DNA of 64,000 bases from Undaria pinnatifida (taxonomy: Eukaryota; Sar; Phaeophyceae; Laminariales; Alariaceae), in NCBI GenBank assembly GCA_012845835.1, contig JABAKD010000005.1:345075-409074 (forward strand), given 5' to 3'. The notes under the pieces were generated by a model. The model was not told where the DNA came from, did no database searches, and worked only from the letters and a program-made list of their open reading frames with translations. Positions within the stretch are counted from its first letter, which is position 1. Each line of letters starts with the position of its first letter. A program made the position numbers and the translations under genes. Of the stretch, positions 18,611 through 59,224 are shown one piece after another.

Positions 18611-18879
18611 TGAAAAAATACGGCCTCGAAAGGCCTGTAAGTATCCGAATTCGACATCATCTGGATGAGTTTCGTATGATAAGGTTGGCGTTTTATGTTC
18701 GGGAAAGTTAGGAAGTAGGTCGGAGGCACGTGCCTCCGATCTTACAAGCTATCCCGGACTCTGGGGGAAACGAATAAAGCTACGTCTCTACTAAGGACAA
18801 GAAAGTGAGTACTCTCCAAGGACCTGCTCAATTGGCAGACCTGCAGGGGGCACTCTGCGTCCCCACCTATAACATGACA
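18611..18879 (+). repeat. 5' LTR of gypsy element 1
   Basis: Begins TGAAAAAATACGGCC (original TGTTAAGATACG in the other copies) and ends AACATGACA. It contains the 20-bp perfect palindrome TCGGAGGCACGTGCCTCCGA at 18720-18739 with a CACGTG core, and a polyadenylation-type signal AATAAA near 18774. The 269-bp length equals the other two copies. Confidence 0.88.
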
Positions 18880-21039: not shown

Positions 21040-21420
21040 GGGGGGTTATACTGCCCGCTTTTTATACGGTTGGTGCGCGAACCTATACGGCTGTCCTACC
21101 CCCCCCTACACTACTGTAGGGGGCGATGCTGCCCGTGTTTATACGGTTGGCTGCACGATCGTTCACTGTGCTACCCCCCCCCCTACACTACTGTTGGGGC
21201 AGATGCTGCCCATTTTTTTTACGGTTGGCTGCGCGATCGTTCACTGTGCTACCCCCCTCCCTACACTACTGTTGGGGCGGATGCTGCCCGTTTTTCATAT
21301 GGTTAGTGCGCTATCCTCTACAGTCATACCCCCCCTACACTACTGTGGGGGTAGATTCTGCCCGTGTTTTATACGGTCGGCGTGTTGGGCGACTCGTAGC
21401 CGTGCTTCCCCCCTACACTA
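21040..21420 (+). repeat. Leader repeat b, about 75-80-bp units
   Basis: About five copies with GATGCTGCCCGTTTTT, TACGGTTGG and a CCCCCCTACACTACTGT block. Related array in element 2 at about 61545-61880. Confidence 0.85.
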
Positions 21421-21960
21421 CACCTAGGGTAAATTCTGCCTGGTTTGGTGCGATGAGTGTCACCGCGTTGGGTGACCTTTCACTGTGCTACCCCCCTACA
21501 CTACACTTAGGTTAAACGCTCCCTGTTTTGCTGCGATGGGTGTCGGCGTGTTGGGCGACCCTTCACTGTGTTTCCACCCCTGCACTACACCTCGGTTAAA
21601 TGCTGCCTGTTTTGGTGCGACTAGTGTCGGCGTGTTGGGTGACCTTTCACTGTGCTACCCCCTTACACTACACTTAGGTTAATGCCGCCTATTTTGGTGC
21701 GATGAGTGTCGGCGTGTTGGGCGACCCTTCACTGTGCAACCCCCTACGCTACACCTAGGTTGAATGCTGCCTGTTTTAGTGCGATGAGTGTCGGCGTGGT
21801 GCGCGTCCCTTCACTGTACTACCCCCTACGCTACACCTAGGTTGAATGCTGCCTGTTTTGGTGCGATGAGCGTCGACGTGTTGGGCAAACCTTCATTGTG
21901 CTCCCCCCTACACTGCATCTGGGGTAAATGCTGCCTGTTTTGGTACGATGAGCGTGAGCG
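21420..21960 (+). repeat. Leader repeat c, about 82-bp units
   Basis: About seven copies with TGCTGCCTGTTTTGGTGCGA, GTGTCGGCGTGTTGGGCGAC, CCTTCACTGTGCTACCCCC and CTACACCTAGGTT. The same unit occurs in element 2, where the spacing between copies is exactly 82 bp. Confidence 0.88.
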
Positions 21961-22397
21961 TTTTGGGCGACGCTTTCCTGTGCTACCCCCCCGCCTAGAT
22001 TAAATGATGCCCATTCAAGTGCGATGGGTGCAGACGTACCTTTACTGTGATGCACCCCCTGCACTGCGGTTAGGGTCAGTGCTGCCCATTTTTGGCTGAT
22101 TTTACTGCGGTTCGTGCGGGCGTTACCCGTATACCCTACGGTCAGACTGGGCGCTGCTCTTATGTTGCTGTACTTGTTTTTATACGGGTAGTTGGCGTGG
22201 CTGCTACCATCACTAATGCTGCACGGAGTCGAGGCCCATGTCTTACTATTTGCTGAAACACAGATATACCGCTACTTGCAGCGGGGACACCAAAACAGTA
22301 CATCTGCCTCCATAGCTTCTTTACGCGTCGTTCCCATCCCGCCACCTTCCCCCACACCCCCTCCTTCCGCTGTTCTCCATACAGACAACAAGCAACA

Positions 22398-24945
22398 TGT
22401 CTACCTGTGAGGAAGCGGGCTACTCCGGACAGGCTGAGGTCTTCCACGCACCTCAACCTGGATGCCCACGAGACAGGGAGAGCTCGCTCGAGATCCCCCG
22501 ACTCGGGACGGGGGAAACCACCGGAGGCGGGTTCCGGTGACGAGACAGAAGACGGAGCACCGTACCTCCACCCGGACCCACCAATCAAGAGGGTTGACTG
22601 TTCGGTTCGCGCTGAGAAGAAGACGGACCAACCCTCACCGGACTCGGGGGCGTCTTGACGCCAGCTCTCGCCAGCCCCGGGAAAGCTCCACCAACTAACC
22701 CCCCGCGCTCGACAGCGCACCACCGCCGCCATCTGGGCTCTCCGCGCTCGACAGAGCGCCACCCCCAGGGCTCCCGGGACCGAGGCGCCCATGTCGCCCC
22801 CTTTGACTGGGCATACGCGGCGGCGCGCCCGCGGCGGCGCGGGCCCAGCTGGCGCTCGACGACGCTAACCAGACGATAGCACGTCGACGTCGGTTTTACG
22901 ACGATATCGAGCAGGCGAAGACCTCTGCGCGGGAGGCGTCCCTGGTAGCAAGGAGGGCGCAACAAGCCCTCGCCTAATCAGTTACGTCGGCTGCGGCGGG
23001 AGCTACGGCGGCCCTTTTGCCTTCGTCGCGCCCGCAGGGTGTCGCATCCCATCGACCACGACCCGGGAACGACGCCTTCTTCAAATGCATCGTCGCGTGC
23101 ATGGCGTCTGCACCGAGGGTAGACTTCTCCTCAGCGTTGGCGACCGCGGCGGTGGTGGAAACGGCCTGGGCCCTCCTTCTGTCAGAGAGGCCGGCGTCGC
23201 GGCAAGCGGACGTCCTCAGTGAAAGCGGCCTGGGCTCGCGAGGGTTGTGCGCCCTATGGTGGACGAGAGAGGGCCGCCCCGACCCTTGCCCTTGTCAAGG
23301 CCCTGCTGATAGCCCACGACGAGGACCCCGACCCTGTCTTTTGGCCGAACCCCGGAGGAAGAGTTGTCAGAACGAAACCGGGGTAAACAGCGACGCAGCG
23401 ACAGTCGCGACTGCGGGGACCGAAACCGTCGAGGTGGCGGCAGAAATAGTGGGGGTGGCGACCACCACCCACCGCCACGGGGGTGACAGCGGGGGTGGGG
23501 GCGGGAGAGGCGCATCGGATGCTGGCGTGGCTGAGGGCGCCGATGAGGGGGCAACTTTGGTCCAACAACCAGAGCAGTGGCCGCAGCTCTGGTGGAGAAT
23601 AGCGCGAGAGGAACGTTCAACGTGGGACTGCTCACCAACCTCCTCCCGCTCGTCTTCGTTCTCGAGCACGGACGACCACAGCGAGGCGGCCGTGATAGTA
23701 GGCAAGAGGTGTCGAGAGCCAATGCAGGAGGAGCACTTGTGCCTGAGGCTTTCACCCTCCTGTTGCGTCTGCTGATGACGCACTTCGACGGGGTAGACAC
23801 GGAGGAGAGCTACACTAAGTTGCATACTTTTGGAATGTGTAACGTCTTGCCTTTGTCTGATTTCAGTGCGGAGGTTCGCGTACTTGTGCCGACCGCTACG
23901 GGGAGGGAGCGTGTTTTGTCTCCGGGGACAGATGTGGTGTTGAAGATGGTTCGGGTGGCGTCGAATGAGCAATTTCCAGCTTTCCTGCCTGCGTTGTACG
24001 CTGGTTCGAAGGCAACGGACCCGCGGCCATACGCCTCGTTGGATGCTATGTAGCAGGCTTTTGGTGGTTCGGGTGGCGTCGAATGAGCAATTTCCAGCTT
24101 TCCTGCCTGCGTTGTACGCTGGTTCGAAGGCAACGGACCCGCGGCCATACGCCTCGTTGGATGCTATGTAGCAGGCTTTTAGTGAGTAATAAGACACCTG
24201 GCGTCAACGGCGAAATATTTTTTTTCTCTCCCTGTTTCTTCGACGGGAGCGCGGTCATCCGCCCCGTCGGGGCCCCGGCCCGCCGATCATGGGCGCGGCC
24301 AGGGCCGAGTGCCGTCCCAGTCGCTTTCGTGGCAGACGGGATCGAGCCATCATTCAACTGTCATGCCCATCGACGATTCATCTAACCCATAGTTTGACCA
24401 CACATCGAACTGCTGGCCACTAGAAGAGCATCACTATGCAGAATTTTTCGCCGTTAAGGCCTCGTTTAAGACAGACGATCCTCCTCTTTGGAGCGGCCTC
24501 CTTTCACCTCGCGCTAATGCCCTCCGAGAAAACCGGGGGCTTTGCCTCAACTGCCACGAAGACAACCATTCCTATAAGCATTGTAGGCTTCCTTTCAATA
24601 CTGCGAGTGGCTGGTTGAACCCTGAACTTGGCCAAGTTGGCGACGATGACGCACAGCAACGTTGACCAACACGCATGGTCTGCTACCGCCGAGACGACAA
24701 ATCCTCCCTCCCGAACAACCACAAAAAAAATCGTCGCCATCTTTCAAATCAATCGTCGCCATCTTCAAGGATCAGGGCCAGGTAAACTGTCACAACGATA
24801 CCACATACACGTCGGATCACCATGGTGGTATCCTGCGCTCGCCCGCCTCTTCTGCCCACGCTCCTGCTCCTGGAATGCGCTTTGGAGCCACCCACAACCC
24901 GGGCGAAAATACATTCGCGCGCAAACCTGGCACATTTTGTAACGT
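22398..24945 (+). pseudogene. gag of gypsy element 1, frameshifted
   Basis: Starts MSTCEEAGYSGQ at 22398, matching MSTGDDAGCSG of element 2. After several frame changes it encodes RPGNDAFFKCIVACMASAPR (about 23070-23130) and, at 23757-24050, a capsid-like stretch with EAFTLLLRLLMTHFDGVDT and DPRPYASLDAM. The zinc knuckle CLNCHEDNHSYKHC (CX2CX4HX4C) lies at 24543-24584 in another frame. Known: gag forms the particle shell and its CCHC knuckle binds RNA. A TAG at 24050 replaces the TGG of element 2, and a 118-bp tandem duplication (24064-24183) breaks the frame. Not functional. Confidence 0.75.
23946..24183 (+). repeat. 118-bp tandem duplication in gag
   Basis: GGTTCGGGTGGCGTCGAATG at 23948 recurs at 24066, and the whole 118-bp unit is essentially identical. 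The length is not a multiple of three, so it shifts the gag frame. High identity means it arose recently. Confidence 0.92.
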
Positions 24946-26613
24946 TAATCGACAGCTCGACGGCGGTACGGCACCGTCGATAACACTGTCGGGGAGGTAC
25001 CTATTTTGGTTTCAGAGGATGCTCGTGTTTTGTTGCTAGCCTGTCCAGCAACGCAGCACAGATTGCCTGTGTCAAGAGCCCACGGGCTCTACGCCGTCTG
25101 CGGACGATTCTCACGGCGTAGTACCGGCGGCGGGAACTAGCGCTTCGACCGTGGTCTCCCTCAGCCAGGTAATTTTTTTTTTTTTTTTTTTTCGACATGG
25201 AGATCGCGCGCTTTCAGCGTCGTTCTCCTCGGTCATGGTTTGAGTTCAGCGACGGGAACCGCGCTTCCAGCGCCGTTCCCCTCAGCCGCGGCATACACTC
25301 AGCAATGGGGGTACGCGCTTCAAACGCCGCCCCCATCAACGATGGCACGGGAGCCTGCGCTTTGCGCGCTCCCGCGTCGCGTAACAATATAGCTGCGGCA
25401 ACGGCGCGTCGCCTTTTTACGCGTATGTGTTCATCCCCTCCTCTCCCTGACCAGGCGGTGGCAGTCGGTTTGAGGTGTGGGACGGTCGACCCTCGAAACA
25501 CTGTTTTGTGACCACGAAGTGGCGGTCGATTTGAGGTGTGGAAAGGCCAACACTAAAACACCGAGATCTTTTGCGAGGCTCGATCCGGTGTTTGCTCGCG
25601 ATAACAGCGGGCGCTCTGCCCTTTTTTCCATCAAGGAGGAGTCGACAATATTAGCTACCTCGTCTCCCTTCCCCAAGAGACATAACGGAAAAGATCCTCC
25701 TCGGGTAAAAATATTATTGCCTTGCCCGAGCCCCGCTCCAGAAAACGCCCACAGGGTCTGCGGACCCTGCTTCGTCTTTTAACACGCTAACCCACGTGTT
25801 TCAGGCTACGTCTGCCCCAGTGGCACAGGAAGAAGATCCGACACTACTCGACGGGCCAGTGGTGATGCCACGGCCTCCAGACTGATCAGCTGGACGCTAT
25901 TCCCGTAAATTTACGGAAGAATCGCGCCTCTCTTCGAGCAGAAACAGCTTAGAGCTCCTGCCCCTTCGGGCGCAGTTAGAGCTGTTTTCTTGCAATTATA
26001 CTGTATTGAGCGAAGAGGCCACGACGCGAGAAACCGTGGGTTCGGCCTCGCGTCGTGCTCCCGAGGCCTGGTGTTCCTGTGGGGGACACTACAGGCCCAA
26101 AGAGCCGAGGACTGGTGTTCCCAGACGGGGACATTGCAAACCCAAATGCCAAACGAGGCTACCGATGTGTTGGCACCGTCGGTGTTGGACTCTTTTTTGG
26201 GTGCCGCGAGGGCGGCTTGTTTCGAGTTTCCGCCAGCGAGCGAGGAGGACCCGAGGCGAGAAACCCCGGGTTCGGACTCGCAACTTGCTCCCGAGGCCTG
26301 GTGCTCTCGCAAGGGGATATTGCAGGCCAAAATAACCGAGGAGTGGTGTTCCCAGCAGGGGACATTGCAGACCCACCGAAATGTCCAACGAGGCTACCGA
26401 CGGGTTGGCATCGTCGGTTTTTGCCATTTTTCTGGCGCAGTTCGAGCGGATTCTCGCGCTTTTCCGCCAACGATCGAAGAAAGACCCGAGGCGAGATACC
26501 ACGGGTTCGGATTCGCGTCGTGCTCCCGAGGCCTGGTGGTTCCGTATGGGGACATTGCAGACCCAAATTCCAACACGGCTTTTGACCCTTCTCTTTAATA
26601 CTCCACAGACAAA
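24946..26613 (+). other. gag to NADAR spacer of element 1
   Basis: Partly coding in the ancestor: blocks such as LVSEDARVLLLACPATQHRL (about 25008-25067) have a counterpart in element 2 near 56830-56930, and a DLRCGKAN block at about 25531-25554 matches one near 56440-56480. It also holds a T17 run (25179-25195) and degenerate direct repeats at 25197-25345. I recognise no domain. Confidence 0.5.
26040..26575 (+). repeat. About 232-bp tandem repeat, 2.3 copies
   Basis: GTGCTCCCGAGGCCTGGTG-type blocks recur at about 26057, 26288 and 26521, each followed by GGGGACATTGCAGACCCAAA-type sequence. Element 2 has a single copy at about 55850-55990, so the array expanded only in element 1. Confidence 0.85.
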
Positions 26614-27120
26614 GTGGTTTTATTCTGGCAGCCCCAATCCTATTTTCCACCGTGGTTCCCTTCGTCGTTTGCCGTGGACGACGTGCCATATTCTTGCGCG
26701 GAGCAGCACATGATGGCTGAAAAGACCAAGCTTTTCCAAGACCATCGAGCAGTGGGACTCATCATGTCGTCGCCTAGTCCAAGCATACGCAAACGCATCG
26801 GTTGAGGCGTGCACAACATTGACTCCGGTGTTGGGGGCAGGGAGAAGCAAAACGCCGTGTTATCTGGCACCTACGCCAAATTCACGCAGATTCGAGCCAT
26901 AAAAAAGTCACCTTTGGAGCTCTGACAACAGGCTTCTGGCTGAATTCAGTCCTCTGGACCCAGTGTGGGGCATTGGTCTCCGGACGGATGGTCCCAGGGC
27001 CAACAACCCATGCCAGGGGAGAGGAAAAACTTGCTCGGAGAAGCACTTTCTGCCGTTCGCGAAGCTATTCGCGACAATGAGACCGGGTCGGCGCACCCGG
27101 CCTCCCCTAGTCGGTTCCGC
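26614..27120 (+). pseudogene. NADAR/YbiA-like domain in gypsy element 1
   Basis: Seen: one frame gives PPWFPSSFAVDDVPYSCAEQ, HMMAEKTKLFQ, VGLIMSSPSPSIRKRIG, a TGA at 26803-26805, then AVLSGTYAKFTQ. After a frame change follow LAEFSPLDPVWGIGL (about 26939-26982) and RGKNLLGEALSAVREAIRD (about 27023-27079). This is the full NADAR pattern: fsNf-P-s-F-vdgv-Y-c-aEq-MMaeKa-lF, a-Kf-Q-p, lvE-sp-D-vWGIGl, gkN-LG-aLm-vR. Known: NADAR proteins act on ADP-ribose-linked N-glycosidic bonds (YbiA in riboflavin metabolism; some remove ADP-ribose from guanine in DNA), and the Glu of the EQ-MM-K motif and the Trp of WGIG are conserved. The TGA corresponds to a CGA in element 2. It lies between gag and protease. 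No toxin partner is nearby. Confidence 0.8.
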
Positions 27121-27267
27121 ACCTGCACTGCGAATGCAAGAACCAAGAAATCTCGTCTGCGCCGCAATCGGGCGGTTAACAGCGGCCAGCGCTCGCAAAA
27201 CTTCCCTCTCGACGTTTCCGACCGATTTTTCGGGCGCGTTGGTCAATTAAAAGCCGTGGAGGTTTAG

Positions 27268-27377
27268 AGATAAGTTCTGGCGTCGGCCCTGACCTTACGC
27301 TGTCAGAACACGGCCCCTGTTTCGTCAAGGGTACTGTGACGCTGGACGGCGTTTCGCTCACTATGAAAATCGCATAA
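27268..27377 (+). pseudogene. Start of protease region, cut by deletion
   Basis: LSEHGPCFVKGTVTLDGVSL followed by TMKIA matches the first 25 residues or so of the element 2 pol frame (LPEHGSCLIGGTVTLDAVSF). It then passes without a gap into RNase H sequence. The protease active site and all of RT are missing. Confidence 0.8.
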
Positions 27378-27690
27378 TCAATCGAGCAACGCTAGACTGG
27401 GACAGGCATTGAAGTCCTCTAGATTTGGGGACCGGCAGCATTGGTTGGGCTCCAAAACGCCTCCGAGGGTACTGTGGGGAACAAAGTTTCGCATATCCTC
27501 CGGCCACAAGACACAGGAGAGCACTGGCAAAGGGAGGACCCTCAAAGCACGAGTCCAGCGGTAGCTTGAGTTAGTCACCGCGTTCGATTGCACATTCGAG
27601 TACGGCAAAGGCAACGCTTGCTTTCTGTCTCGCTTGCCGGGGCCTGCCACAAAACACAACCGCAATGGTTCGACGAGTCTCACCCCTGTT
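27378..27690 (+). pseudogene. RNase H C-terminal part of element 1
   Basis: Reads SRATLDWDRH, stop (TGA for TGG), SPLDLGTGSIGWAPKRLRGY, then in another frame GTKFRISSGHKTQESTGK and TAFDCTFEYGKGNACFLSRL. This matches the RNase H end of element 2 (52700-52985). The first catalytic Asp block (VYCDACIYGFG) was lost in the deletion. Confidence 0.78.
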
Positions 27691-28590
27691 GAGGATGGTG
27701 GCATTTACCTCGTAAGGGCTTGCGGGCTGTACACTCCTTCCTCTCCGATTCCGGCTGTCGGCTTGGGTAGGCTAATGCCCCGCACCGAAAGTAATGCCTT
27801 GGGTGGGCTTCCTCTCACTCTTGCCGACTTTTGCGTTTTTCGCACAAACGAGCCACGTATGAGGCTTGACGACCTTCCTACTCCTTCCAGGAGATTCGTC
27901 GCTCGTGTTTCTGCATCCACCGCCACCGTCGATAGCACGCCCGGCCGAGGCGGGAGCTCGCGTACAGCCGACTACGATTTCGCTTCGGTTTTTGCTGTAC
28001 CCACCGTGACCAACGAGGACTCCGCCAAAGCCCCGGCTACCACGACATCATGGCCCAACCGACTCCTTCCCGGATCTCGGTATGAGGGACTAACCAAGTC
28101 GAGCCCACGGACCTGATCGCGCCCGTGACGACCTCGCCTGGATCTCCGGCGCCCCAGACGATGACGCCTTTTGCGGACCACATCTCCACTCGGACGCGCC
28201 GGCGTTCAGCAACAGCAGCTGGTAAAGCACCGCCTGCTGTCGACTATGGCTTCGGGCCCGGCGGGGTTCCCCAGCCATCGTCCAGACGAGTTACAGCTCG
28301 GCCGCGAGCCCGACGGCTGCGGCCCCTACTCTTGCCGACCCGCCGGCTCGCGCGGTACCACTTCCGTCCGACCACGACCACGCAGAGCCTTTGGGAACTC
28401 CGCTCCTACGGATTACGCCTCCTCCTGGTGATACGCCGGCTACACTTACAAGATCGGATGCCCTCGGCGACGCTGCTGAATTGCGGTTTGTGGATATTCG
28501 CATGCCGATTGGAAGCGCGAAAAATACTCAGAACCGACGTGCCACGGCACGATACGTTACATCTCTATCGGCCGGTCGTCGGCCCTGCCA
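27634..28590 (+). pseudogene. Linker between RNase H and integrase (element 1)
   Basis: Frame 27634-28116 encodes PATKHNRNGSTSLTPVEDGG and LPLTLADFCVF, collinear with element 2 (52480-52700). The following Pro/Ser/Thr-rich part (27860-28590) is frameshifted. Low-complexity linkers at this place are usual in gypsy polyproteins. No catalytic domain. Confidence 0.65.
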
Positions 28591-28599
28591 CCCGACGTC

Positions 28600-29475
28600 T
28601 TGGCATGCTACCCCCCGCCCAAGCACCCCTCTCTCTCAGACACCCAGGAGCTGGTGGGTAAGGGTCGACTACATACAACCGACCACGACATCGTCCTACT
28701 CGTCCGTAACCCGACACTCCAGCCAACAAGCTCTGACATACCGAACTCTGTGGGGCGAGCTGCTTGCTTGCTAAACGACGAGCCAGTTCGCATCTACGTT
28801 CCCCTGCTCATGAGCCATTGGATCATGCAAGCTTGTCACTCGTCGGCCTCTTGTCACCTTGGCACCACGCGCACGTTGCGCCTGCTGGAGCATTTTTTTT
28901 GGTGGATTGGCATGAGCGTATGAAACCGGTGGTCGCTTCGCCACTGCTTCAAGTGCCAAGCGCGGAAAACCCCACGGCTAACTGTCCACTGGCCCATCAT
29001 CACAATGCCTCTGCCGGAAGGTCCAGGTATCGCCGTCAGTGTTGACTGCTTCGGCCCCTTTCCGGTCACACCACGAGGCAACACGTACATGCTGCTGTTC
29101 ACCGATCACTTCAGTCGTCGGGCCGACATGCTCCCCGTCACTGCCGCTGAGTTCACCCCGGGGGGTACAGCCAATATCCTGGTGAACCAATACATCCCCT
29201 TGTGGGGGTGCCCGCGCACCATACTCTCGGACAACAGACTCAAGTTCTGCTCCAACCTTTCACAAGCTGTATATCAGCTGTTGGGTGTGCACAAGCTTGC
29301 TACAAGCTCCTATCATCCCAACTGTAACGGGGGCGTTGAGCGGGTAGATTACACTATAGCACAAATGCTGGCTATGGTCGTCAACGAGCAAACACGACGA
29401 TTGGGACTTGCATCTGCCCCACGTAGAATTCGCTTACAACAACTCCGTCAGCGCGGCGACGGGTCTGACGTCTGA
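28600..29475 (+). pseudogene. Integrase of element 1 (HHCC plus catalytic core)
   Basis: One frame with a single TGA (28921-28923, TGC in element 2). The N-terminal zinc domain is visible: ACHSSASCHLGTTRTLRLLE, FFWWIGM, then HCFKCQARK. The core has the catalytic Asp in AVSVDCFGPFPVTPRGNTY, the second in TILSDNRLKFCSNL (Gly after DN replaced by Arg) and the Glu in YHPNCNGGVERV. Known: retroviral-type integrase inserts the cDNA using the D-D-E triad. A frameshift near 29400 separates the rest of the polyprotein. Confidence 0.85.
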
Positions 29476-30664
29476 CGGGGTCCACATGGGCAGACTCCCA
29501 CGGCCCACCATGACGGTTTTCGACCGCACTTGTGTTGTGGGACACCAGAGACTGGCCCGGGACCACCTGGCGTATTGCGACTTGGCCACCGACCGGCAAA
29601 AGCGCGCGAACGACATTGTCCGCGCACACCACGCCCTCACCGTTTCCCGTGTTAACCGCAGAAACTCCGCCCTCGCCGACGCGCTGCGTCCAGCACCTAA
29701 CTCCACTGTAGGTGGTTGGGCATGGGTATACAATTCTGCCTCTGCCATCCGCCAGGGTGTGAAGGCGAACACCGACGCCAAGGTACTCGAGTCCAAACTC
29801 GCGCTTAACTGGACGGGCCCGTACAAGATCCTGGCCGTCGGTCAAAGCTCCGCCGCCGAGACCCCGCACGGCTCGCCGCTCGGGAACAACCTCCTCTATT
29901 CGGATCTCCCTTCCGACCTGCCCGGGTCGGGCGCTCGTTGGCGTGTGGCCATCGAGCGCTGCAAACCCTGTGCCAACCCCCACGACAGCGGGGACATGCC
30001 CAAATACCTACCGGCGGGACTGACACAGTACGTGCTCAACAAATTTTCCAAGAAGTCCCCGCCGTACCACGTCAGTCAAGACGACGTTTCGACTCCCCAC
30101 CAACGACTGGAGGTGGAGCTGATCACTGGTCATCAGTCGGTACGGGGGCGAGGTGGCGTCATCGCGGTGCTATACAAGACGCATTGGACGCGACTCTCCG
30201 ATCCTTCCTGGGAGCGGGAAATGGACCTCCACCTCTCCCGCTCCCACATCTTGCGTTGTTGGACCGGAACCCCGGGCCATCACCGCCAAACCAACCGCCT
30301 CTACCGCCGAATGCGGATAGGGGCGGCACAGCGTGAGCTTTCCCGCAACATCGGAGAACGTTCCCTAGCGCCGGGCTACGCCTGTGTTCCCTGCAATGAT
30401 TGGCTCCGTCGCTACCACGACACAGTACTCCCTAAGGGATCCCACTTTTGGTACAAGGGAGACAATGGGTTATGGTGGCTTGGAAAAATCAGCGCGAGCA
30501 CTACCGAGGATAAGGTATACCTGGTCCGCTTTCTGGACGACCCGGGACCGATTAAACTTCATCTTCCCCCGGCGCGCTACACGACTTCGGCCGGAGCCGT
30601 ACGAGGCTCTTGGTGCTTGCAAGTTCACATCGCCAGTGCGTTTTCTCGTTGGAATCCAAGGTAA
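29408..30664 (+). CDS. Integrase C-terminal region with chromodomain-like and WWLGK modules
   Basis: An open 418-codon stretch, the longest intact frame of element 1. Residues 1-60 finish the integrase core (HLPHVEFAYNNSVSAATGLT). Residues about 130-140 carry LNWTGPYKILAVG, the GPF/Y-type integrase end. Residues about 230-285 (ELITGHQSVRGRGGVIAVLY, SWEREMDLHLSRSHILRCW) fit a chromodomain, which in chromoviruses guides insertion to marked chromatin. Residues about 345-395 (HFWYKGDNGLWWLGKISAST, VYLVRFLDDPGPIKL) look like a small Tudor/Agenet-like barrel; this last call is inference. The ATG is internal to the ancestral polyprotein, so translation from it is unlikely. Confidence 0.75.
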   Translation: MHLPHVEFAYNNSVSAATGLTSDGVHMGRLPRPTMTVFDRTCVVGHQRLARDHLAYCDLATDRQKRANDIVRAHHALTVSRVNRRNSALADALRPAPNSTVGGWAWVYNSASAIRQGVKANTDAKVLESKLALNWTGPYKILAVGQSSAAETPHGSPLGNNLLYSDLPSDLPGSGARWRVAIERCKPCANPHDSGDMPKYLPAGLTQYVLNKFSKKSPPYHVSQDDVSTPHQRLEVELITGHQSVRGRGGVIAVLYKTHWTRLSDPSWEREMDLHLSRSHILRCWTGTPGHHRQTNRLYRRMRIGAAQRELSRNIGERSLAPGYACVPCNDWLRRYHDTVLPKGSHFWYKGDNGLWWLGKISASTTEDKVYLVRFLDDPGPIKLHLPPARYTTSAGAVRGSWCLQVHIASAFSRWNPR

Positions 30665-31544: not shown

Positions 31545-31813
31545 TGTTAAGATACGACCTCGAAAGGCCTGAAAGCATCCGAATTTGAGATTATTTGGAT
31601 GGGTGTCGTATGATAAGGTTGGCGTTTTATAGTTGGGAAAGTTAGGAAGTAGATCCGAGGCACGTGCCTCCGATCTCAGAGGCTATACCGGACTTTGGTG
31701 GGAACGAATAAAGCTACGTCTCTACGAAGGAAAATAAAGTGAGTACTCTCCGAGGACCTGCTCAATTGACAGACCTGCAGGGGGCACTCTGTGTCCTCAC
31801 CTTTCACTTCACA
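31545..31813 (+). repeat. 3' LTR of gypsy element 1
   Basis: TGTTAAGATACG start, CACTTCACA end, 269 bp. Carries the GAGGCACGTGCCTC palindrome core and AATAAAGCTACGTCTCTACG. Followed by the ACCG target duplication. Clearly diverged from the 5' LTR, so the insertion is not recent. Confidence 0.9.
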
Positions 31814-48318: not shown

Positions 48319-48473
48319 CAGGTCTACAGAGTTTACAAGAAAATTTAGACCCGTTTAAACTTTTTGAAAGCTCAGACCCGATCCACCCAGCCAATCAGAC
48401 GGCGTCCTGGGCGGGTGGCAAACGCTGAAATAGAACCGTACCTGATTTTGACCATGGCAGCACCGTGTCTTTA

Positions 48474-48742
48474 TGTTAAGTTATGGGTAGGGACACCGAG
48501 TGCCCCCTGCAGGTCTGCCAATTGAACAGGTCCTCGGAGAGTACTCATTTTCGTTTCCTTGGTAAAGACGTATATATATTCCATTCCACCAGAGCCCCGG
48601 ATAGCTTTTGGGATCGGAGGCACGTGCCTCCGATATATTTCCTAACTTTCCCGACTATAAAACGCCAACCTTATCATACGAAACCCATCCAAATTATCTC
48701 AGTTTCGGATAATTACAGGCCTTTCGAGGCCGTATCTTAACA
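48474..48742 (-). repeat. 3' LTR of gypsy element 2
   Basis: 269 bp. On the minus strand it begins TGTTAAGATACGGCCTCG and ends ACTTAACA. Contains a 22-bp perfect palindrome at 48613-48634 with a CACGTG core. Length identical to both LTRs of element 1. Confidence 0.9.
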
Positions 48743-49667: not shown

Positions 49668-50784
49668 TTACCTCGGATTCCAACGAGAAAACGCACTGGC
49701 GATGTGAACTTGCAAGCACCAAGAGCCTCGTACGGCTCCGGCCGAAGTCGTGTAGCGCGCCGGGGGAAGATGAAGTTTAATCGGTCCCGGGTCGTCCAGA
49801 AAGCGGACCAGGTATACCTTATCCTCGGTAGTGCTCGCGCTGATTTTTCCAAGCCACCATAACCCATTGTCTCCCTTGTACCAAAAGTGGGATCTCTTAG
49901 GGAGTACTGTGTCGTGGTAGCGACGGAGCCAATCGGCGCAGGGAACACAGGCGTAGCCCGGCGCTAGGGAACGTTCTCCGTTGTTGCGGGAGAACTCACG
50001 CTGTGCCGCCCCTATCCGTATTCGGCGGTAGAGGTGATTGGTTTGGCGGTGCTGGTCCGGGGTTCCGGCCCAACAACGCAAGATGTGGGAGCGGGAGAGG
50101 TGGAGGTCCATTTCCCGCTCCCAGGAAGGCTCGGAGAGTCGCGTTCAATGCGTCTTGTATAGCACCGCGATGACGCCACCTCGCCCCCATGCCGACTGAT
50201 GACCAGTGATCAGCTCCACCACCAGCCGTTGGAGGGGAGTCGAAACGTCGTCTTGAGTGCCGTGGTACGGCGGGGACTTCTTGGAAAAATTATTGAGCAC
50301 GTGTCAGCCCCGCCGGTAGGTATTTGGGCATGTCCCCGCTGTCGTGAGGGTTGGCACAGGGTTTGCAGCGCTCGACGGCTACACGCCGACGAGCGTCCGT
50401 ACCGGGCAGGTCGGAAGGGAGATCCGAATAGAGGAGGTTGTTCTCGAGCAGCGAGCCGTGCGGGGTCTCGGCGGCGGAGCTTTAACCGACGGCCAGGACC
50501 TTGTACGGGCCCGTCCAGTTAAGCGCGAGTTTGGCCTCGAGTACCTTGGCGTCGGTGTTCGCCTCCACACCCTGGAGGATGGTAAAGGCAGAAATGTATA
50601 CACATGCCCAACCAGTTAGGTGCTGGACGCAGCGCGTCGGCGAGGGCGGAGTTTCTGCTGTCAACACGGGAAACGGTTCGGGCGTGGTGTGCGCGGACAA
50701 TGTCGTTCGCGCGCTTTTGCCGGTCGGTGGCCAAGTCGCAATAAGCCAGGTGGTCACGGGCCAGTCTCTAGTGTCCCACGACAC
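49668..50784 (-). pseudogene. Integrase C-terminus, chromodomain-like and WWLGK modules (element 2)
   Basis: Frame 49668-50111 encodes MDLHLSRSHILRCWAGTP and the terminal module GDNGLWWLGKISAST with VRFLDDPGPIKL. The preceding parts (50482-50784 and others) are in different frames: LALNWTGPYKVLAVG is at about 50482-50530. Frames break between 50110 and 50480, so the chromodomain is split. Confidence 0.75.
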
Positions 50785-51927
50785 AAGTGCGGTCGAAACC
50801 CGTCAGGGGGGTCCGTGGGAGTCTGCCCATGTGGACCCCGTCGGGCGCCAGACCCGTCGCCGCGCTGACGGAGTTGTTGTGAGCGAGTTCTACGTGGGGC
50901 AGATGCAAGTCCCAATCGTCTTGTCGCTCGTTGACGACCATAGCCAGCGTTTGTGCCATAGTGTGATTTACCCGCTCAACGCCCCCGTTACAGTTGGGAT
51001 GATAGGAGCTTGCAGCAAGCTTGTGCACACCCGACAGCTGATATACAGCTTGTGAAAGCTTGGAGCAGAACTTCAGTCCGTTGTTCGTGAGTATGGTGCG
51101 CGGGCACCCCCACAAGGGGATGTATTGGTTCACCAGGATATTGGCTGTACCCCGCGGGGTGAACTCAGCGGCAGTGACGGGGAACATGTCGGCCCGACGA
51201 TTAAAGCGATCGGTGAACAGCAGGATGTAGGTGTTGCCTCGTGGTGTGACCGGAAAGGGGCCGAAGCAGTCAACACTGACGGCGATACCTGGACCTTCCG
51301 GCAGAGGCATTGTGATGATGGGCCAGCGGACAGGGTTTTCCGCGCTTGGCACTTGAAGCAGTGGCGAAGCCACCACCGGTTGCATACGCTCATGCCAATC
51401 CACCAAAAAAAATGCTCCAGCAGGCGCAACGTGCGCGTGGTGCCAAGGTGACAAGACGCCTACGAGTGACAAGCTTGCATGATCCAATGGCTCATGAGCA
51501 GGGGAACGTAGATGCGAACTGGCTCGTCGTTTAGCAAGCAAGCAGCTCGCCCCACAGTGTTGGGTTCGTCAGATCTTGTTGGCGGGAGTGTCGGGTTACG
51601 GACGAGTAGGACGATGTCGTCGTCGGTTGTATGTAATCGACCCCTACCCACCAGCTCCTGGATGTCTGAGAGAGAGGGGCGCTTGGGCGAGGGGTAGCAT
51701 GCCAAGAAGTCAGGTGGCAGAGCCGACGGCCGGCCGATAGAGATATAACGTATTCTGGCGTGGCACGTCGGTTCTACGTGCTGTTCGCGCTTCCAATCGG
51801 CATGCGAATAACGCGCGACGGTATCCGCGAACCGCATTTCAACAGCGTCGTCGAGGGCATCCGACCTTGCAAGTGTAGCCGGCGTGTCACCAGGAGGAGG
51901 CGTAAGCCGTAGGAGCGGAGTTCCCAT
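50768..51927 (-). pseudogene. Integrase of element 2
   Basis: The zinc domain lies in frames 51460-51927 and 51130-51429: SHWIMQACHS, HFFWWIGMSVCNRWWLRHCF, KCQAR. The core lies in 50768-51541: VDCFGPFPVTPRGNTYILLF (first Asp), CPRTILTNNGLKFCSKL (second Asp replaced by Asn) and YHPNCNGGVERVNHTMAQ (Glu). A frameshift near 51450 separates the zinc domain from the core. The Asn substitution would abolish strand transfer even without the frameshift. Confidence 0.82.
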
Positions 51928-52483
51928 AGGCTCTGCGTGGTCGTGGTCAGACGGAAGTGGTACCGTGCGGGCCAGCGGGTCGGTAAGAGTAGGGGTCGCG
52001 GCGGCGGGCGGAGCATGCCGCGGCTGCCGGCTCGCGTCGGAGTTTTAACTCGCCTGGACGATGGCCGGGGGATCCCGCCGGGCCCGAAGCCATAGTTGAC
52101 AGCAGGGGGTGCCTTACCAGCTTCTGTTGCTGAACGCCGGCGCGTCCGAGTGGAGATGCGGTCTGAAAAAGGCGCCATCGACTGGGGCGCCGGAGATCCA
52201 GGCGAGGTTGGGACGGGCGCGGTCGGGCCCGTGGGATCGATTGAGTCAGTCCCTTGTACCGCGCTCCGGGAAGGAGTCGGGGTCGGGCCACCGATGTCGT
52301 GGCAGCCGGGGCTTCGGCGGAGTCCTCGTTGGCCACGGTGGGAACAGCAAAAACCAAAGCGAATTCGTAGTCGGCTGTACGCGAGCCCCCGCCTCGGCCG
52401 GGCGAGCTATCGACGGTATCGGTGGATGCAGAAACACGAGCGACAAATCTCCTGGAAGACGTAGGAAGGTCGTCAAGCCTCAT
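51928..52483 (-). pseudogene. RNase H-integrase linker (element 2)
   Basis: Starts MRLDDLPTSSRRFVARVSAS and continues Ser/Pro/Arg-rich (frame 51947-52483). Collinear with 27860-28590 of element 1. No catalytic domain; probably a flexible linker of the polyprotein. Confidence 0.65.
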
Positions 52484-53097
52484 GCGTGGCCCTTGTGTGC
52501 GAAAATCGCAAAATTCGGCAGGGTGAGAGGAAGCCCACCCAAGGCATTACTTTCAGTGGGGGGCATTAGCCCACCCAAGGCGACACCCGAAATCGGAGAG
52601 GAAGGAGTGTGCAGCCCGCAAGCCCTTGTGAAGTATATGCCACCATCCTTAACAGGGGTGAGACTTGTCGAACCATTGCGGTCGTGTTTCGTGGCAGGCT
52701 CCGGCAAACGAGACAGGAAGTCGGCGTTTCCGCTCGCGCTTCCTTTTCGGTATTTGATGGTGTAATCGAATGCGGTGAGGAACTCGAGCCATCTCTGGAC
52801 TCGCGCGTTGTGGTTCCCCACTTTGTCTATGCTTTCCAGAGCCTTATGGTCAGAGAACATTCGGAACTAGATGCCCCAAAGGTAGCCGCGGAGGCGCTTC
52901 AGAGCCCAGACGATGCTGCCAGCCTCCGACTCGAGAGGATTCCAATGCCTTTCCGAGTTGAGCGTAGCTCGGCTGATGTACGCGATGGGTCTTATGGAGC
53001 CGTCCGTTTGCTCCAGTTCGAGAGCGGCTCCAAACCCGTAGATGCAGGCATCGCAGTACACTGAATCGGGCGTGTGCCGTCGGCGACGGCGTCCCAA
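52484..53097 (-). pseudogene. RNase H of element 2
   Basis: Frame 52867-53097 encodes SVYCDACIYGFGAALELEQT (first Asp), PIAYISRATLNSERHWNPLE (Glu) and SIVWALKRLRGYLWGI. Frame 52480-52860 continues MFSDHKALESIDKVGNHNAR and YRKGSASGNADFLSRL (final Asp). A stop/frame break at 52861-52866 separates the halves. Known: the RNase H domain of gypsy pol. Confidence 0.82.
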
Positions 53098-53582
53098 TCA
53101 GGGAAAACGAGGACCGGCGGGCTCGTGAGCCCCGCCAAGATTCCTCTCACCAGCTTCTCCAAAGCAGGCGTAAAAGCACTTTACCCCCTTCCAAAGGAAC
53201 GCGTTAATCGGAAGAAGTCTCTTCGATAAGTCGAGCAAACAATTGCGGTAATAGTTGATACCACCCATGAATGCGCGCACCTGCTTAACGTCAGTAGGCA
53301 TCGGCATATTGGTCAATGCCGACACTTTTCCCGCATTTTTAGGCATAGGCCCGCTGGAGAAATGGAGTGGCCGAGAAAGTTCGCATCGGTAGCGCCCAAA
53401 CGCGCCTTTAAGGGGGAAAGCTTGAGGTTGTGCTTTCGAAGAATCGTCCGAATATGCGCTACCGGGTCGGAGTCGAACACGATGACATCGTCGAGGTGAG
53501 CTGCCACCTGTTTCAAGCTCTTGATCACCTCATTGATGACCTTGACGAACCACCCAGGCGAGGCGCTGCTGCCCTGAGGCAT
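53098..53582 (-). pseudogene. RT C-terminal half of element 2
   Basis: Frame 53313-53582 starts MPQGSSASPGWFVKVINEVI and holds the catalytic VAAHLDDVIVFDSD (a LDD form of the Y-x-D-D box) and NFLGHSISPAG. Frame 53098-53346 continues with VSALTNMPMPTDVKQVRAFM and GGINYYRNC (thumb/connection). Frames are shifted relative to each other near 53330. Confidence 0.82.
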
Positions 53583-53588
53583 AACAAG

Positions 53589-55121
53589 TCACTCATAAAG
53601 CCCCGTGGGTATGCAGAACGCTGTAAAGAGAACTGTGTCTTTTTGTGCCGTTATCTGGTGGAAAGAGGAAACCAAGTCGAACAGGGAAAACACCCGACCT
53701 GAGCCAAAGGAGTCCAGGACCTGGTCCACGCGGGGAATTTGCAGTTGGCTGAGCTTGATAATTTGGTTGAGCTTCTTGTAGGTCACCGTGATCCTTACAC
53801 CGCCAGATTGCTTAGGGATGGCCACCAGCGGGCTCGAGTACGGTGATGTCGAGTGCTGAATCTGCCCAGCCGCGAGGTACTGGTTAAGGGTCGCGTCCAC
53901 TTCTATGGCCAGTATAGGGTTTACGCGATGGGGCCGTGAAGTGACTGGAGCGCTGCCCTCCGGAACCGAGATTTCAAAGGTCGTTAGGGAGCATGACCCA
54001 TAATCCGTCTTCGAGGTGGAGAACAAGTCAGAAAAATCGCAGATCACATCCCCCAGTTGCTCAATGGTCGGGAGGTCCCAACCAGGGTCATTTAAGTCGA
54101 ACGTGATCTCCCGCAGATGCGGTGGGAGTCGGGCCCAGACGCGTATAAATGAAGAACGTTGGGCTGGGTTCAAACGTTTCATTAGCGTCGGCGAGGGCGG
54201 CGGCACGGCATGAGCTATCCCTTCCGCGTCCGTCAAGCTCACGGCCGCAGAGACCTGGCTGTCCGAAGTCTGACCAGGGTGGGGACCCGCAGCCATCATG
54301 GGGTGTTGCAAGGCACCCAGCGGGATGCGCAAACGTGGGGCGTCGGCGACCCCGACAAGGTTGCCTGGCTCGAGGTCCGCGACATCTGTTAAGGGAAGCA
54401 CCTGTTGTCCTGAAGCAACAAAGTGTTTCTTCCTCGAACGAATGTTCGGCTGCGGCACTATGTCGACAATATAGTGTCCTGTGAGCGCAGGAGAGCCGTT
54501 GCTACGCACCAAGTTGACCGCGAGCAGTTGGGGCTTGTCCGACAACATGACACCTGTAGTGCCATCATAGCGAAGGTGGAAAGGACCTTTCGATGGTGCG
54601 GGGTCGACGGCCTGAGCCGCTTCGCCTGCTGTGGCGTGGTAGGAAAACGTCAGCTCGCCCAAAACCCGATTATCGAGAGGACCAGGGGGCAGAGCGCGGT
54701 ACCAACGGGTGTTGAAGCGCATCCAACTGTCGCGGCCCAGCAAGACAGCGTGCTGCATGACCGATGGAGGAACCACGGATGCCCACACCGCGAGAGAGCA
54801 TGTCGGTTCATTTTCGTGAAAGAATCGAACGCTCAGACGAATGTGGGTCGCGCTCCGCAAAGGGGCGGATTCGCCAAAACCACCCCAGGAGCGAGGGCTG
54901 CTGGGCCGCTCGCACGCCGATGAGGCGGCGCCTACCGATAGCATACGATCCAACACGTCACGTCGGATGTAGGTTTGGGGGGAGCCAGTGTGAAGCAGCG
55001 CCGTACATCTGTAGGGCGCAATGGCGTCCCCTCCGCTATGTATTGCAATATCGGTAGTAAAAGAAACGGCGTCCAGCGTCACGGTACCCCCGATGAGGCA
55101 GGAGCCATGTTCTGGCAGCAC
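53589..55121 (-). CDS. Protease and N-terminal half of RT (element 2), 510 codons open
   Basis: Starts MLPEHGSCLIGGTVTLDAVS. Residues about 40-55 carry ALLHTGSPQTYIRRDVL, the retropepsin active-site loop with His in place of the catalytic Asp of D-T/S-G; the flap/partner region follows (VMQHAVLLGRDSWMRFN). Residues about 380-505 are RT: PHRVNPILAIEVDATLNQYL, GQIQHSTSPYSSPLVAIPKQ, VDQVLDSFGSGRVFSLFDLV (first catalytic Asp block), FTAFCIPTGLYE. It stops just before the MPQGSS block; a shift of a few bases would join them. Known role: particle maturation and cDNA synthesis. The ATG is internal to the polyprotein. Confidence 0.82.
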   Translation of the reverse strand: MLPEHGSCLIGGTVTLDAVSFTTDIAIHSGGDAIAPYRCTALLHTGSPQTYIRRDVLDRMLSVGAASSACERPSSPRSWGGFGESAPLRSATHIRLSVRFFHENEPTCSLAVWASVVPPSVMQHAVLLGRDSWMRFNTRWYRALPPGPLDNRVLGELTFSYHATAGEAAQAVDPAPSKGPFHLRYDGTTGVMLSDKPQLLAVNLVRSNGSPALTGHYIVDIVPQPNIRSRKKHFVASGQQVLPLTDVADLEPGNLVGVADAPRLRIPLGALQHPMMAAGPHPGQTSDSQVSAAVSLTDAEGIAHAVPPPSPTLMKRLNPAQRSSFIRVWARLPPHLREITFDLNDPGWDLPTIEQLGDVICDFSDLFSTSKTDYGSCSLTTFEISVPEGSAPVTSRPHRVNPILAIEVDATLNQYLAAGQIQHSTSPYSSPLVAIPKQSGGVRITVTYKKLNQIIKLSQLQIPRVDQVLDSFGSGRVFSLFDLVSSFHQITAQKDTVLFTAFCIPTGLYE

Positions 55122-55289
55122 GCCGAAACCTCCGGGCTTTGGTCGGCGGGTGTATCCGAAAAATAGGCCGAAGGAGGGCCTTGGTCAGCGCCGACCGCGG
55201 TTCCCAAGCGCGACTGCTGAGCGGACGAAATTTCGTGGATTCCAGCATTTCCGGTGGGGCTGCGGAATCGACGAGGGGAGGTCGGGTGT

Positions 55290-55735
55290 GGCGATCCGGC
55301 CTCGCTGTCGCGAATTGCTTCGTGAACGGCAGAGAGTGCCTCACCGGGAATTGTTTTTTCTCTCCACCTGTGTGGATCCTTGGCGTGGGGGTCGTCCGCC
55401 CGGAGACCTATACCCTACACTGTGTCTAGAGGACTGACCTTTGATAAAAACGTTTGTTGCCAGTGCTCGAAAGGTGAAGTTTCATGGCTGGGTTCTGCGT
55501 AAATTTGGCATAATTGCCAGATAACACGGCATTTCGCTTCTCCCTGTCCCAAACAGCGGTAGCAAAGTTCCGCACGCCTCGACCTACGCGTTTGTGTGTG
55601 CTGGGGTCAGACGATGACATGATGAGCGATCGTCTTTAAAAAGCCGAGACTTTTCAGCCATCATAAACTGCTCCTCGCAAGAACATGAGACGTCGTCGAC
55701 GACAAACGACGAAGGAGACCACTGCGAGAAAAAAG
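55290..55735 (-). pseudogene. NADAR/YbiA-like domain in gypsy element 2
   Basis: Moving down the minus strand: SQWSPSSFVVDDVSCSCEEQ, FMMAEKSRLFKDD (about 55628-55725), a one-base shift, then in frame 55426-55620 STHKRVGRGVRNF, VLSGNYAKFTQNPAMKLHLS, STGNKRF. A further shift leads to SPLDTV, TAG, GIGLRADDPHA (the Trp codon of the conserved WGIG is TAG) and GEALSAVHEAIRD at about 55295-55340. Order, motifs and place between gag and protease equal those in element 1 (26614-27120). The EEQFMMAEK glutamate is kept. Inactive as it stands. Confidence 0.8.
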
Positions 55736-56974
55736 GACGGCGGTTGCCATAACAGCATTACTTTGCCTGTAGAGTGTTCGAGGGAAGGGTCAAACGTCGA
55801 CGGTGGCAACCCGTCGGAGGCCGTGTTAGGCATATGAACCTGTAATGTCCCTGTCCGGGGTCACCAGTCTCCGGCACTTTGGGCCTGCAGCGTCCCCGTC
55901 TGGGCACGCCCGGCCTCGGGAGCACGGCGCGAGCCCGAACCCACTGGTGGTCGAGTCGTGGCTTTGTCGCTTTTTGGCGTAAAATCGCAAGGAACTGCTC
56001 TCACTGCACCCGAAAGGACAGGGGACTCGGAGCTGTTACTGCTTGACGAGCGGCGCGATTCTTTCGTATCTTCACGGGAATAGCGTCCAGCCGATCAGGG
56101 CTGGAGGCCGTGGCGTCACCACTGGCCCGTTGCGCAGTGTCGGATCTCTATCCTGTGCCACTGGGGAAGACGTAGCCTGGTTCACGTGGTTAAGCGTGTT
56201 TAAAGACGGAGCAGGGCCCGTAGACCCTGTGGGCGTCTTCGACAGCGGGGCTCGGGCAAGTGGAAATTATTTCCTCGCCAGAGGGGGCTTCTTCCCGTTA
56301 GCCATCTTGGAGGAGAGAGACAAGGTAGCTAAGCTTGTCGGCTCCTCCTTGATTAGAAAGAAAATAGAACGCCCGCTACTATCGCGACGAGACACCGGAT
56401 CAAATCTTGTAAAGATCTCGGTGTATATGGGTTGGCTTTCCCACACCTCAAACCAAACGCTGCTTTACGGTCAGGAAGAAGTGGAGACGAACTCGCTCGC
56501 GTATAAGGGCGAAGCGTCGTCGCCGCACTCTTCTTGCTGCGCGACGCGTGCCTGGGGGGGGCGTGCAAGGTGCAGGCTCCTGTGTCATGGTTGAGGGGGG
56601 CAGCGGTAGGGGCGCGCCCTCCATTGTCGAGTTTGAGCCACGGCAGGGGGTAACGGCGTTGGAAGCGCTGGTCCTCATTGCCGAACTTGGACCATGATCG
56701 AGGGGGGCGTCGCTGTGAGCGCGCACCCCCTTCGTAGAAAATGTAACCTGGCTGGGGGGGGTATGCTGGGAGCGTTGGTTCCCACCGCCGGTACTACGCC
56801 GTGAAAGTCGTCATCAGGCCACGTAGGAGCCCGTGGGCTCTGGACAGAAATAATTTGTGCCGCGCTACGTGTAAGGCAAACGACAGGCACTCGAGCATCT
56901 TGTGAAAGCAAAGGAAGTTTCCCCCACAGTGCCGTCGGCGTACGGGTCGGGTGTGCCGTTCCGCCGTCGCCCTG
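55736..56974 (-). other. gag to NADAR spacer of element 2
   Basis: Collinear with 24946-26613. Contains PDRKAAFGLRCGKANPYTPR (about 56440-56500), SRAHGLLRG-like blocks near 56810-56840 and one copy of the unit that is amplified in element 1 (55850-55990). Frames are broken; no domain recognised. Confidence 0.5.
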
Positions 56975-58156: not shown

Positions 58157-58506
58157 GCGGGCGGTCGTGGGCCTGTCAGGTGTTATGGCACGGTTGAATG
58201 CCAGACGGAGGGGGTGGATCCAACCGTGTACCCACGTGGGCGCACGTACGCCCTCGTAGGCAACTTAGTGTAGCCTTCCCTCGTGTCGACCCGGTCGAGG
58301 TGCGTCACGAGCATGCGTAGCAGGAGGGTGAAAGCCTCGGGCCTAGATGCTCCTCCGTCCAACGCTCTCGACACCTGCCCAAAGAAATCGTCGATCAAAG
58401 TGGTCATGCGGGCGGTCGTGGGCCTGTCAGGTGTTATGGCACGGTTGAATGCCAGACGGAGGGGGTGGATCCAACCGTGTACCCACGTGGGCGCACGTAC
58501 GCCCTC
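58005..58506 (-). repeat. Perfect 251-bp tandem duplication in gag
   Basis: GTAGGCAACTTAGTGTAGCC at 58005 recurs at 58256. The two 251-bp copies (58005-58255, 58256-58506) look identical, so the event is recent. 251 is not a multiple of three, so gag is frameshifted. Confidence 0.93.
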
Positions 58507-59224
58507 TTAAAACGGTCGTCACAGCCCATAAGTATGTCAGTCATTGCGGACCGAACCGAACGCGTGAGTTTCTGTGTGCCGTCAGACTTGTTCAAAGAGG
58601 CTGGGAACGGTAGCGCAGAAATGCGTGATACGTCCTTGTAGGAAAGCTTTACATAGGCACGCCTAACCGAGTCATCAAGCATGGATTTGGCTAGAGCCGG
58701 GGCGGTAGCAAGTTCGGCGGTACGCTCGCAGGCCAAAACCGACGAAGCAGGCTTGGTGCGGTCACTCGACGCAGTCAGTTTGCTCAGCCGTTCAGCGGAG
58801 GAGGCAATATTATCCACCAGGAAAGGAGTTTCTTGCCTCTTGCCGGCTACCACTGTCACCTCGCCGTGGTCCGTGTTCGAGCTCGAAGACGAGCGGAAGG
58901 AGGTTTACGAGCCGGCCCACGCTGAAGGCCCACGTGCGCTGTTTCGGCGTCTTCCGGTGCCTACTCCCGAGCTGCAACCGCCGCTCCGGTTGGTTCGGGC
59001 CTGGTTGTTCCCTTGGCGGCGCTGTGGGCAACCACCAGTACCCGACGCTCCTCCCGCGCTTCCACCACCCCCGCGGCGGTTGTGGTGGCCACCACCCCCA
59101 CCATTTTCCCCGTTTCCCCCACTCTGGCTGATGGGAAAACCCATGCTCAGGATCGGCTTGCTCGCGTGGGCCACCTCATGCGGCGGCCTTGGTTGCGCGG
59201 TGGCAGCGGATAAAGGAGAAGTCC
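58434..59224 (-). pseudogene. gag middle region (element 2)
   Basis: Frame 58434-58859 encodes SMLDDSVRRAYVKLSYKDVS, RSAMTDILMGCDDRFKRAYV and a helical capsid-like stretch. Frames 58810-59174 are Gly/Arg-rich (GGGGGHHNRRGGGGSAGGAS). Matches the Gly-rich segment of element 1 near 23440-23560. Broken into at least two frames. Confidence 0.65.

Follow-up and report, generated by a model that had tools for sequence, protein, structure and literature searches.

The stretch of Undaria pinnatifida DNA that we analysed, hereafter the window (64,000 nucleotides), contains two copies of an LTR retrotransposon that carries a NADAR domain. Their parts are listed in Table 1. Copy 1 spans positions 18611-31813 and has the same 4 bp (ACCG) on both sides. 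Sequence comparison identified it as a decayed member of a non-autonomous subfamily of brown-algal Ty3/gypsy-type LTR retrotransposons. The integrase profile retrieved Ty3-G Pol (E 2.8e-35), and among the matches listed the integrase part had its named relatives in Ectocarpus. The two LTRs carry 35 differences over 269 sites (K2P 0.143), and the insertion is therefore probably old. The protease DTG, the reverse transcriptase (RT) and the start of RNase H have been lost in a deletion of about 2.07 kb. Imperfect repeats with a spacing of about 230 bp (26008-26568) overlap the Pol linker remnant.

Table 1. Parts of the two NADAR-bearing copies in the window, and position of the TGA between Gag and Pol in five related loci
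Feature	Element	Position	Strand	Remark
5' LTR	copy 1	18611..18879	+	269 bp; ACCG directly before
Tandem array of 82-bp units, long 5' leader	copy 1	21041..22094	+	array in copy 2 as well
gag remnant, in several frames	copy 1	22263..24937	+	tblastn with Gag pieces of open relative
Gag zinc knuckle CLNCHEDNHSYKHC	copy 1	24543..24584	+	
Linker remnant, start of Pol	copy 1	25032..26376	+	comparison with open relative
NADAR	copy 1	26602..27102	+	broken: one nonsense codon, two frameshifts
Remnant of pre-DTG protease region	copy 1	27264..27374	+	comparison with open relative
Deletion junction	copy 1	27363..27369	+	about 2.07 kb absent vs copy 2
RNase H remnant and next Pol stretch	copy 1	27377..28014	+	comparison with open relative
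Integrase remnant (zinc finger, core) with flanking stretches	copy 1	28026..30118	+	Pfam; comparison with open relative
Tail after integrase: chromodomain-like, then Agenet/Tudor-like	copy 1	30104..30649	+	weak profile matches, in relatives only
3' LTR	copy 1	31545..31813	+	269 bp; ACCG directly after
gag	copy 2	56978..60680	-	comparison with open relative
Pol linker	copy 2	55774..56974	-	comparison with open relative
NADAR, broken frame	copy 2	55283..55773	-	
Protease region	copy 2	54564..55279	-	HTG at open relative's DTG
RT and RNase H	copy 2	52328..54563	-	
Integrase with flanking stretches, and tail	copy 2	49683..52327	-	
3' LTR	copy 2	48473..48738	-	86% match to 5' LTR of copy 1
Gag-Pol TGA	L009	6846-6848		
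Gag-Pol TGA	L010	3675-3677		
Gag-Pol TGA	L011	6084-6086		
Gag-Pol TGA	L012	6005-6007		
Gag-Pol TGA	L013	3848-3850		

A previous sequence-only reading of this DNA had claimed that the element encodes the full NADAR motif set downstream of the Gag zinc knuckle, and had suggested a Pfam search as a check. We found the motifs in the sequence, downstream of the knuckle. CAEQHMMAEK and YAKFTQ share a frame, SPLDPVWGIGL lies in another one, and KNLLGEALSAVR is back in the first; in GKNLLG, the leading G is read from another frame than the rest of the motif. Among the four pieces searched, 26599-26802 gave a significant match to Pfam NADAR (E 4.2e-9; 37.3 bits, over the curated cut-off of 35.1), 26903-27250 scored under this cut-off (E 0.0013, 19.4 bits), and the two remaining ones gave no NADAR match. 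All 167 residues of the NADAR of an open relative aligned to 26602-27102 with 58% identity (E 1.1e-54). Because the alignment covers the full length at this identity, a chance likeness to NADAR is excluded, and the alignment confirmed the region as a genuine NADAR domain. A search of PDB sequences with the NADAR piece of the window gave 0 matches.

Residues are designated here as in the solved NADAR of Phytophthora nicotianae, which we took to be chain 8bau, the residue spacing of which fits the published numbering once shifted by 2. The nonsense codon at 26803, equivalent to Arg79, is TGA in copy 1 and CGA in its sister copies. The frame shifts in an A-run near 26901-26906 and again near 27030; the TGA at 26923 reads as a stop solely through the A-run frameshift. 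The active site of copy 1 is not intact, the codon for R79 being TGA, that for W89 GGG, and the frame being broken. E125, the last-strand glutamate that marks the YbiA type, is encoded by GAA. The breaks in the frame and the active site, together with the RT deletion, rule out that copy 1 is itself functional, and the activity that the earlier reading had envisaged was not borne out for this copy.

Copy 2 (48473-64000, minus strand) is a fuller NADAR element than copy 1 and is frame-broken too. Its 5' LTR was not found within the 64-kb window. The 3' parts of the two copies (27369-31813 vs 52986-48474) are 89% alike, the gag-NADAR parts 65-78% and the 5' leaders 79-85%. This makes copy 1 look like a mosaic of sequences from two subfamilies, of the kind that template switching would produce.

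We searched the genome (511,146,479 bases in 68 contigs) with the NADAR DNA of the window. This gave 819 first-look candidates, 40 of which were scored, one being the window itself. All 40 spanned the query (one from base 2) with at least 92% identity, and the other 39 copies were 92-96% identical to the window. We examined 17 of these 39 sisters. The junction that deletes the RT was crossed without a break in all 17, and the frame was lost before NLLG in all 17 as well (16 at -1 and one at -2). The A-run had the +1 length in 12 sisters, other out-of-frame lengths in three and was in frame in two. When the window copy was counted with the 17 sisters, the equivalent of W89 was Gly in 18/18, D130 was replaced by Asn in 8/18 and K50 by Asn in 3/18; the stop at R79 was confined to the window copy, and one other copy had a stop at E125. 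The gag region was in pieces in L087 and L088, the two sisters with an upstream region that we compared. We regard the group to which the window copy belongs as an amplified non-autonomous subfamily. As all 17 sisters share the deletion and the second frameshift, the shared lesions came first and the multiplication later, the copies presumably being spread by the enzymes of intact relatives. Copies with a broken NADAR did multiply, and the domain therefore need not act in cis. This multiplication also fits with NADAR being a neutral passenger throughout the lineage and in the course of being lost, as does the pooled pN/pS of the 18 copies, which amounted to 0.81 before the A-run and 0.73 over all codons up to NLLG (0.51 in the short stretch behind the A-run). 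The open relatives, described below, speak against this explanation.

A genome-wide search for NADAR yielded 1454 first-look candidates, of which 150 were scored, all 150 over the NADAR cut-off. Nine of these matches lie in open frames of 2473 codons, and five in open frames of 2371 codons. In the open relatives, the order of the predicted parts was shown to be Gag, in-frame TGA, linker, NADAR, protease (DTG), RT, RNase H, integrase and tail. We cut one of them, L009, into eight pieces for a Pfam search and found matches to NADAR (4.5e-52, 177 bits), RT (4.2e-25), RNase H (6.6e-31), the integrase zinc finger (1.7e-12) and the integrase core (3.9e-8); three pieces before NADAR, one behind it and the last piece gave no Pfam match. 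The protease, which had no Pfam protease match, was recognised by the motif ALLDTGSPQTF at residue 673, and the RT was also indicated by YLDD at residue 1171. NADAR lies 407 residues past the Gag stop and ahead of the DTG. Of the 274 sites of the L009 LTR pair, which spans 15.7 kb, 273 are identical, and GTAG flanks the copy on either side; L009 is, by these features, a young open copy.

The open relatives bore out the proposed location of NADAR, between the Gag and the protease of a Ty3/gypsy-type element. As to a position upstream of the protease, this part of the claim held for the open relatives, in which the protease is known by its DTG motif, but not for copy 1, from which the DTG is gone. 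The sequence-only reading had also considered that a lack of the domain in other family members would indicate a chance capture. Copy 1, taken alone, is frame-broken, as might be expected if a host or bacterial NADAR gene had landed by chance in or near one insertion. Yet NADAR occupies the same place in copy 2, in the open frames of 2473 and 2371 codons and in 17/17 sisters examined, which refutes a chance capture and leaves it with practically no probability.

A TGA was found right before the open Pol frame, in the frame of Gag and at the same place, in 5/5 loci compared (L009, L010 and L013 of family A; L011 and L012 of family B). Ahead of it, four of them have a Gag frame that is 498 to 1019 codons long, that of L009 being cut by the end of the locus, while no Gag frame of at least 250 codons was found ahead of the TGA of L012. 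This TGA is also present in copy 2 and in L087, and it is CGA in copy 1 and L088. Our guess is that an in-frame TGA in two deeply diverged families may be a readthrough signal. RNA folding behind the Gag stop gave z values of -1.35 and 0.68, indicating no special structure there.

Behind the integrase, nine of 30 rows had a match to the Chromo profile with an E of 1 or less (best 0.0016; none for the window row) and five of 30 had one to the Agenet profile (best 0.0096), all these matches being weak. It is on such weak profile matches that the tail is labelled chromodomain-like and Tudor-like. A conserved Agenet/Tudor-like stretch (WYKxxDGLWWLGKI...YxVRFLDDPGP) was observed behind the chromodomain-like one in the window (30104-30649) and in P0121, P0132 and P0152. 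Viral contigs were scanned with P0063, which gave 11 pattern matches, and with the integrase alignment, which gave 20; none of these matches was a relative.

We compared the two open families, A and B. A local (BLAST) alignment of their Pol proteins begins at NADAR (residue 403 in A, 315 in B) and extends onward from there. Counted per 50 residues, identity was 26-33% before NADAR, 40-56% within it, 26% and 40% in the two bins behind it, and 68-86% over most of RT/RNase H. The NADAR domains themselves were 49% identical, with saturated synonymous sites (pS 0.76, pN 0.37). The Ka/Ks comparison of NADAR that the earlier reading had suggested was made on stop-free copies, 58 of the 150 matches being selected as such, a choice that favours conservation, with 14 representatives for dN/dS. 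With L001 as the reference copy, dN/dS was 0.14, 0.18, 0.23, 0.23 and 0.24 against L058, L056, L032, L050 and L044, and 0.40, 0.46 and 0.46 against L051, L060 and L066. The values for other pairs of stop-free copies went up to 0.92-1.30, many of these copies lying in short frames, with post-insertion decay mixed into the ratio. These data support the view that NADAR shows signs of purifying selection. Because of the 49% identity at saturated synonymous sites and the dN/dS of 0.14-0.46, the domain would have been retained for long under constraint, and the same two observations make it very unlikely that NADAR is a neutral passenger.

Of the 11 side chains that PMC11543638 names as contacts of ADP-ribose, eight are invariant across four NADAR families (L001, L030, L058 and L059), compared to 37 of 139 other columns (p 0.003). 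When the test was restricted to the two families whose Pol frame is long and open, 9/11 contacts were invariant vs 72/150 of all columns (p 0.02). The contacts that vary are D86 and R93, which differ between families, and W133, which is Arg in L058. When the test was made on eight residues (without Y84, D86 and R93), p was 0.0009; it is weaker with all 11. As in the Phytophthora protein, E43, K50, K75, R79, W89, E125, D130 and W133 are kept in 54-58 of the 58 stop-free copies. In contrast, this protein is described as an orphan NADAR that does not belong to a retroelement, and the retroelement form has Phe at Y84 (58/58 copies) and a variable D86. Replacements in the active site of these 58 copies affected E43 in four, K50 in three, K75 in three and E125, the mark of the YbiA type, in two (kept in 56/58). 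Comparison of the sequences thus showed that two deeply diverged families with open frames retain a predicted NADAR with most of the ADP-ribose contacts. The frames of L058 and L059 are 515 and 600 codons long, and a long open Pol is found in two of the four families. L058 and L059 represent two further NADAR lineages in this genome, both of them distant from families A and B.

If NADAR served as a structural or RNA/DNA-binding part of Pol, devoid of catalysis, the flanking stretches could likewise vary more than NADAR itself, and changes of ligand contacts such as D86 and R93 could be tolerated. Such a role is nevertheless unlikely, since 8 of 11 ligand columns, including E43, K50 and E125, are invariant in four families, above other columns. 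Enzymatic activity is, in our opinion, probably the reason why NADAR is kept.

That standard gypsy elements have no such domain, as the sequence-only reading had it, is right in general; however, a Gypsy lineage that carries NADAR in the same layout, Gypsy-12_Ec32, is already in print for Ectocarpus (PMC12477816, available part; Genome Biology, 29 Sep 2025). Among the matches listed, this is the only report that we recognised on NADAR in LTR elements. The elements share their Ty3/gypsy type, a brown-algal host and NADAR, and those described here would belong to the same lineage. As far as the accessible text goes, a C-terminal chromodomain is reported for the Gypsy-12_Ec32 lineage, and the relatives studied here gave weak Chromo matches. 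The size of the host genome differs (200 Mb vs 511 Mb here). The same text places a Tudor domain in a different lineage from the chromodomain ones, and the matches listed, as far as their text was available, contained no report of a chromodomain and a Tudor domain in one element. A word search of the main text of PMC12477816 found neither 'readthrough' nor 'stop codon'. To the Ectocarpus report our analysis adds an amplified subfamily that is defective, two open families that are deeply diverged, tests of constraint on codons, the TGA that lies in frame between Gag and Pol, a reader-like stretch in addition to the first, a comparison of active sites, and the finding that one NADAR family groups with brown-algal stand-alone proteins and not with bacterial ones.

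Other known systems are less close. The Tx1 LINEs of Crassostrea carry a NADAR in a retroelement, but this one is of the non-LTR type and the domain is in ORF1 (PMC12477816, available part). E. coli YbiA (2b3w) belongs to a common fold family (profile match E 5e-16) and is, unlike the retroelement NADAR, a bacterial protein. In its available part, PMC11543638 mentions that NADARs of bacteria and plants break down riboflavin intermediates, and it connects ybiA with swarming. The stand-alone NADARs of brown algae, P0241-P0244 (Pylaiella, Scytosiphon and two from Ectocarpus) and P0078 (from EukProt), are 209-252 residues long and lack Pol parts; P0241-P0244 and P0078 are presumably cellular. P0241-P0244 have a short C/H-rich N-terminal stretch, e.g. 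CELPGCSRPCFIEPNGHVHDYCGVTHA in P0243, which is possibly a zinc finger.

With respect to the origin of the domain, Pylaiella, Scytosiphon and Ectocarpus supplied the best named NADAR relatives among the matches listed. A careful tree, built on 52 rows, placed six rows of family A and its kin, together with Ectocarpus P0313, with P0241-P0244 and P0078 (96/89), and left family B and L059 apart from this group; the tree is unrooted, its bootstrap had not settled and the sample is one without other eukaryotic NADARs. In a quick tree of 112 rows, made without family B, family A grouped with the brown-algal proteins and P0078 (SH-aLRT 98). An AU test rejected neither a single retroelement clade (p 0.457) nor a grouping of retroelements and algal proteins together (p 0.542), the 'retroelement' label of P0322 and several protein rows being assigned by similarity. 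For the Ectocarpus lineage, PMC12477816 (available part) states that blastp matches outside Ectocarpus were mostly bacterial and suggests horizontal transfer. A derivation of the family A NADAR straight from bacteria is not favoured by our trees, in both of which the brown-algal protein is nearer. By this placement, a brown-algal gene is a nearer relative of the family A NADAR than the bacterial ones are.

In Ty3/gypsy elements, Pol is packaged with RT and integrase. In the best explanation overall, which we hold with good confidence, copy 1 is a decayed copy of its subfamily and the NADAR of the open relatives would most likely be a Pol-packaged ADP-ribosyl hydrolase. NADAR would be made as part of Pol and enter the particle along with protease, RT and integrase, where it would take ADP-ribose, most plausibly linked to guanine, off the RNA or cDNA of the element; this role would have been lost in the subfamily of the window. 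All steps beyond the conserved active site are ones that we infer. Given the location in Pol and the packaging of Pol, the simplest mechanism is one in which the domain cleaves ADP-ribose off the nucleic acid of the element within the particle. According to the part of PMC11543638 available, NADARs use E43, K50, E125 and other residues to bind ADP-ribose, which they cleave off guanine. We assign the substrate class, guanine-linked ADP-ribose on the RNA or cDNA of the element, tentatively.

NADAR could instead have small NAD-derived molecules or ADP-ribosylated proteins as its substrates, and would then blunt a diffusible host alarm or a modification of Gag. The sequence favours no single substrate, and PMC9503650 (available part) attributes mostly soluble ADP-ribose derivatives to phage NADARs and macromolecular substrates to those of eukaryotic RNA viruses. 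On the other hand, all NADAR/YbiA proteins tested in PMC11125620, in its available part, hydrolysed guanosine-ADP-ribose, and the location in Pol puts the domain beside the nucleic acid of the element. We find this alternative conceivable and rather doubtful.

The removal of ADP-ribose by packaged NADAR may be part of a wider scheme, in which a de-ADP-ribosylase would shield RNA or cDNA from a host defence based on ADP-ribosylation, at least one family would have taken the domain from a brown-algal gene, and defective offshoots would be served in trans. This scheme as a whole is speculative and more of an unlikely than a likely one. If an ADP-ribose-removing enzyme was indeed kept for long in a retrotransposon polyprotein, hosts may expose such elements to ADP-ribosylation; if this is true, brown algae would be a place in which to seek ADP-ribosylation of nucleic acids as a defence against mobile DNA. 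The open copies and the crippled amplified subfamily provide a natural setting in which elements that have the enzyme can be compared with ones that lack it.

The window contains other repeats. A 507-bp direct repeat (35806-36312 and 40903-41409; 99.2% identical, starts 5.1 kb apart) resembles the LTR pair of another, young element, and there are two more tandem-repeat arrays, at 38052-38804 and 47207-47865.
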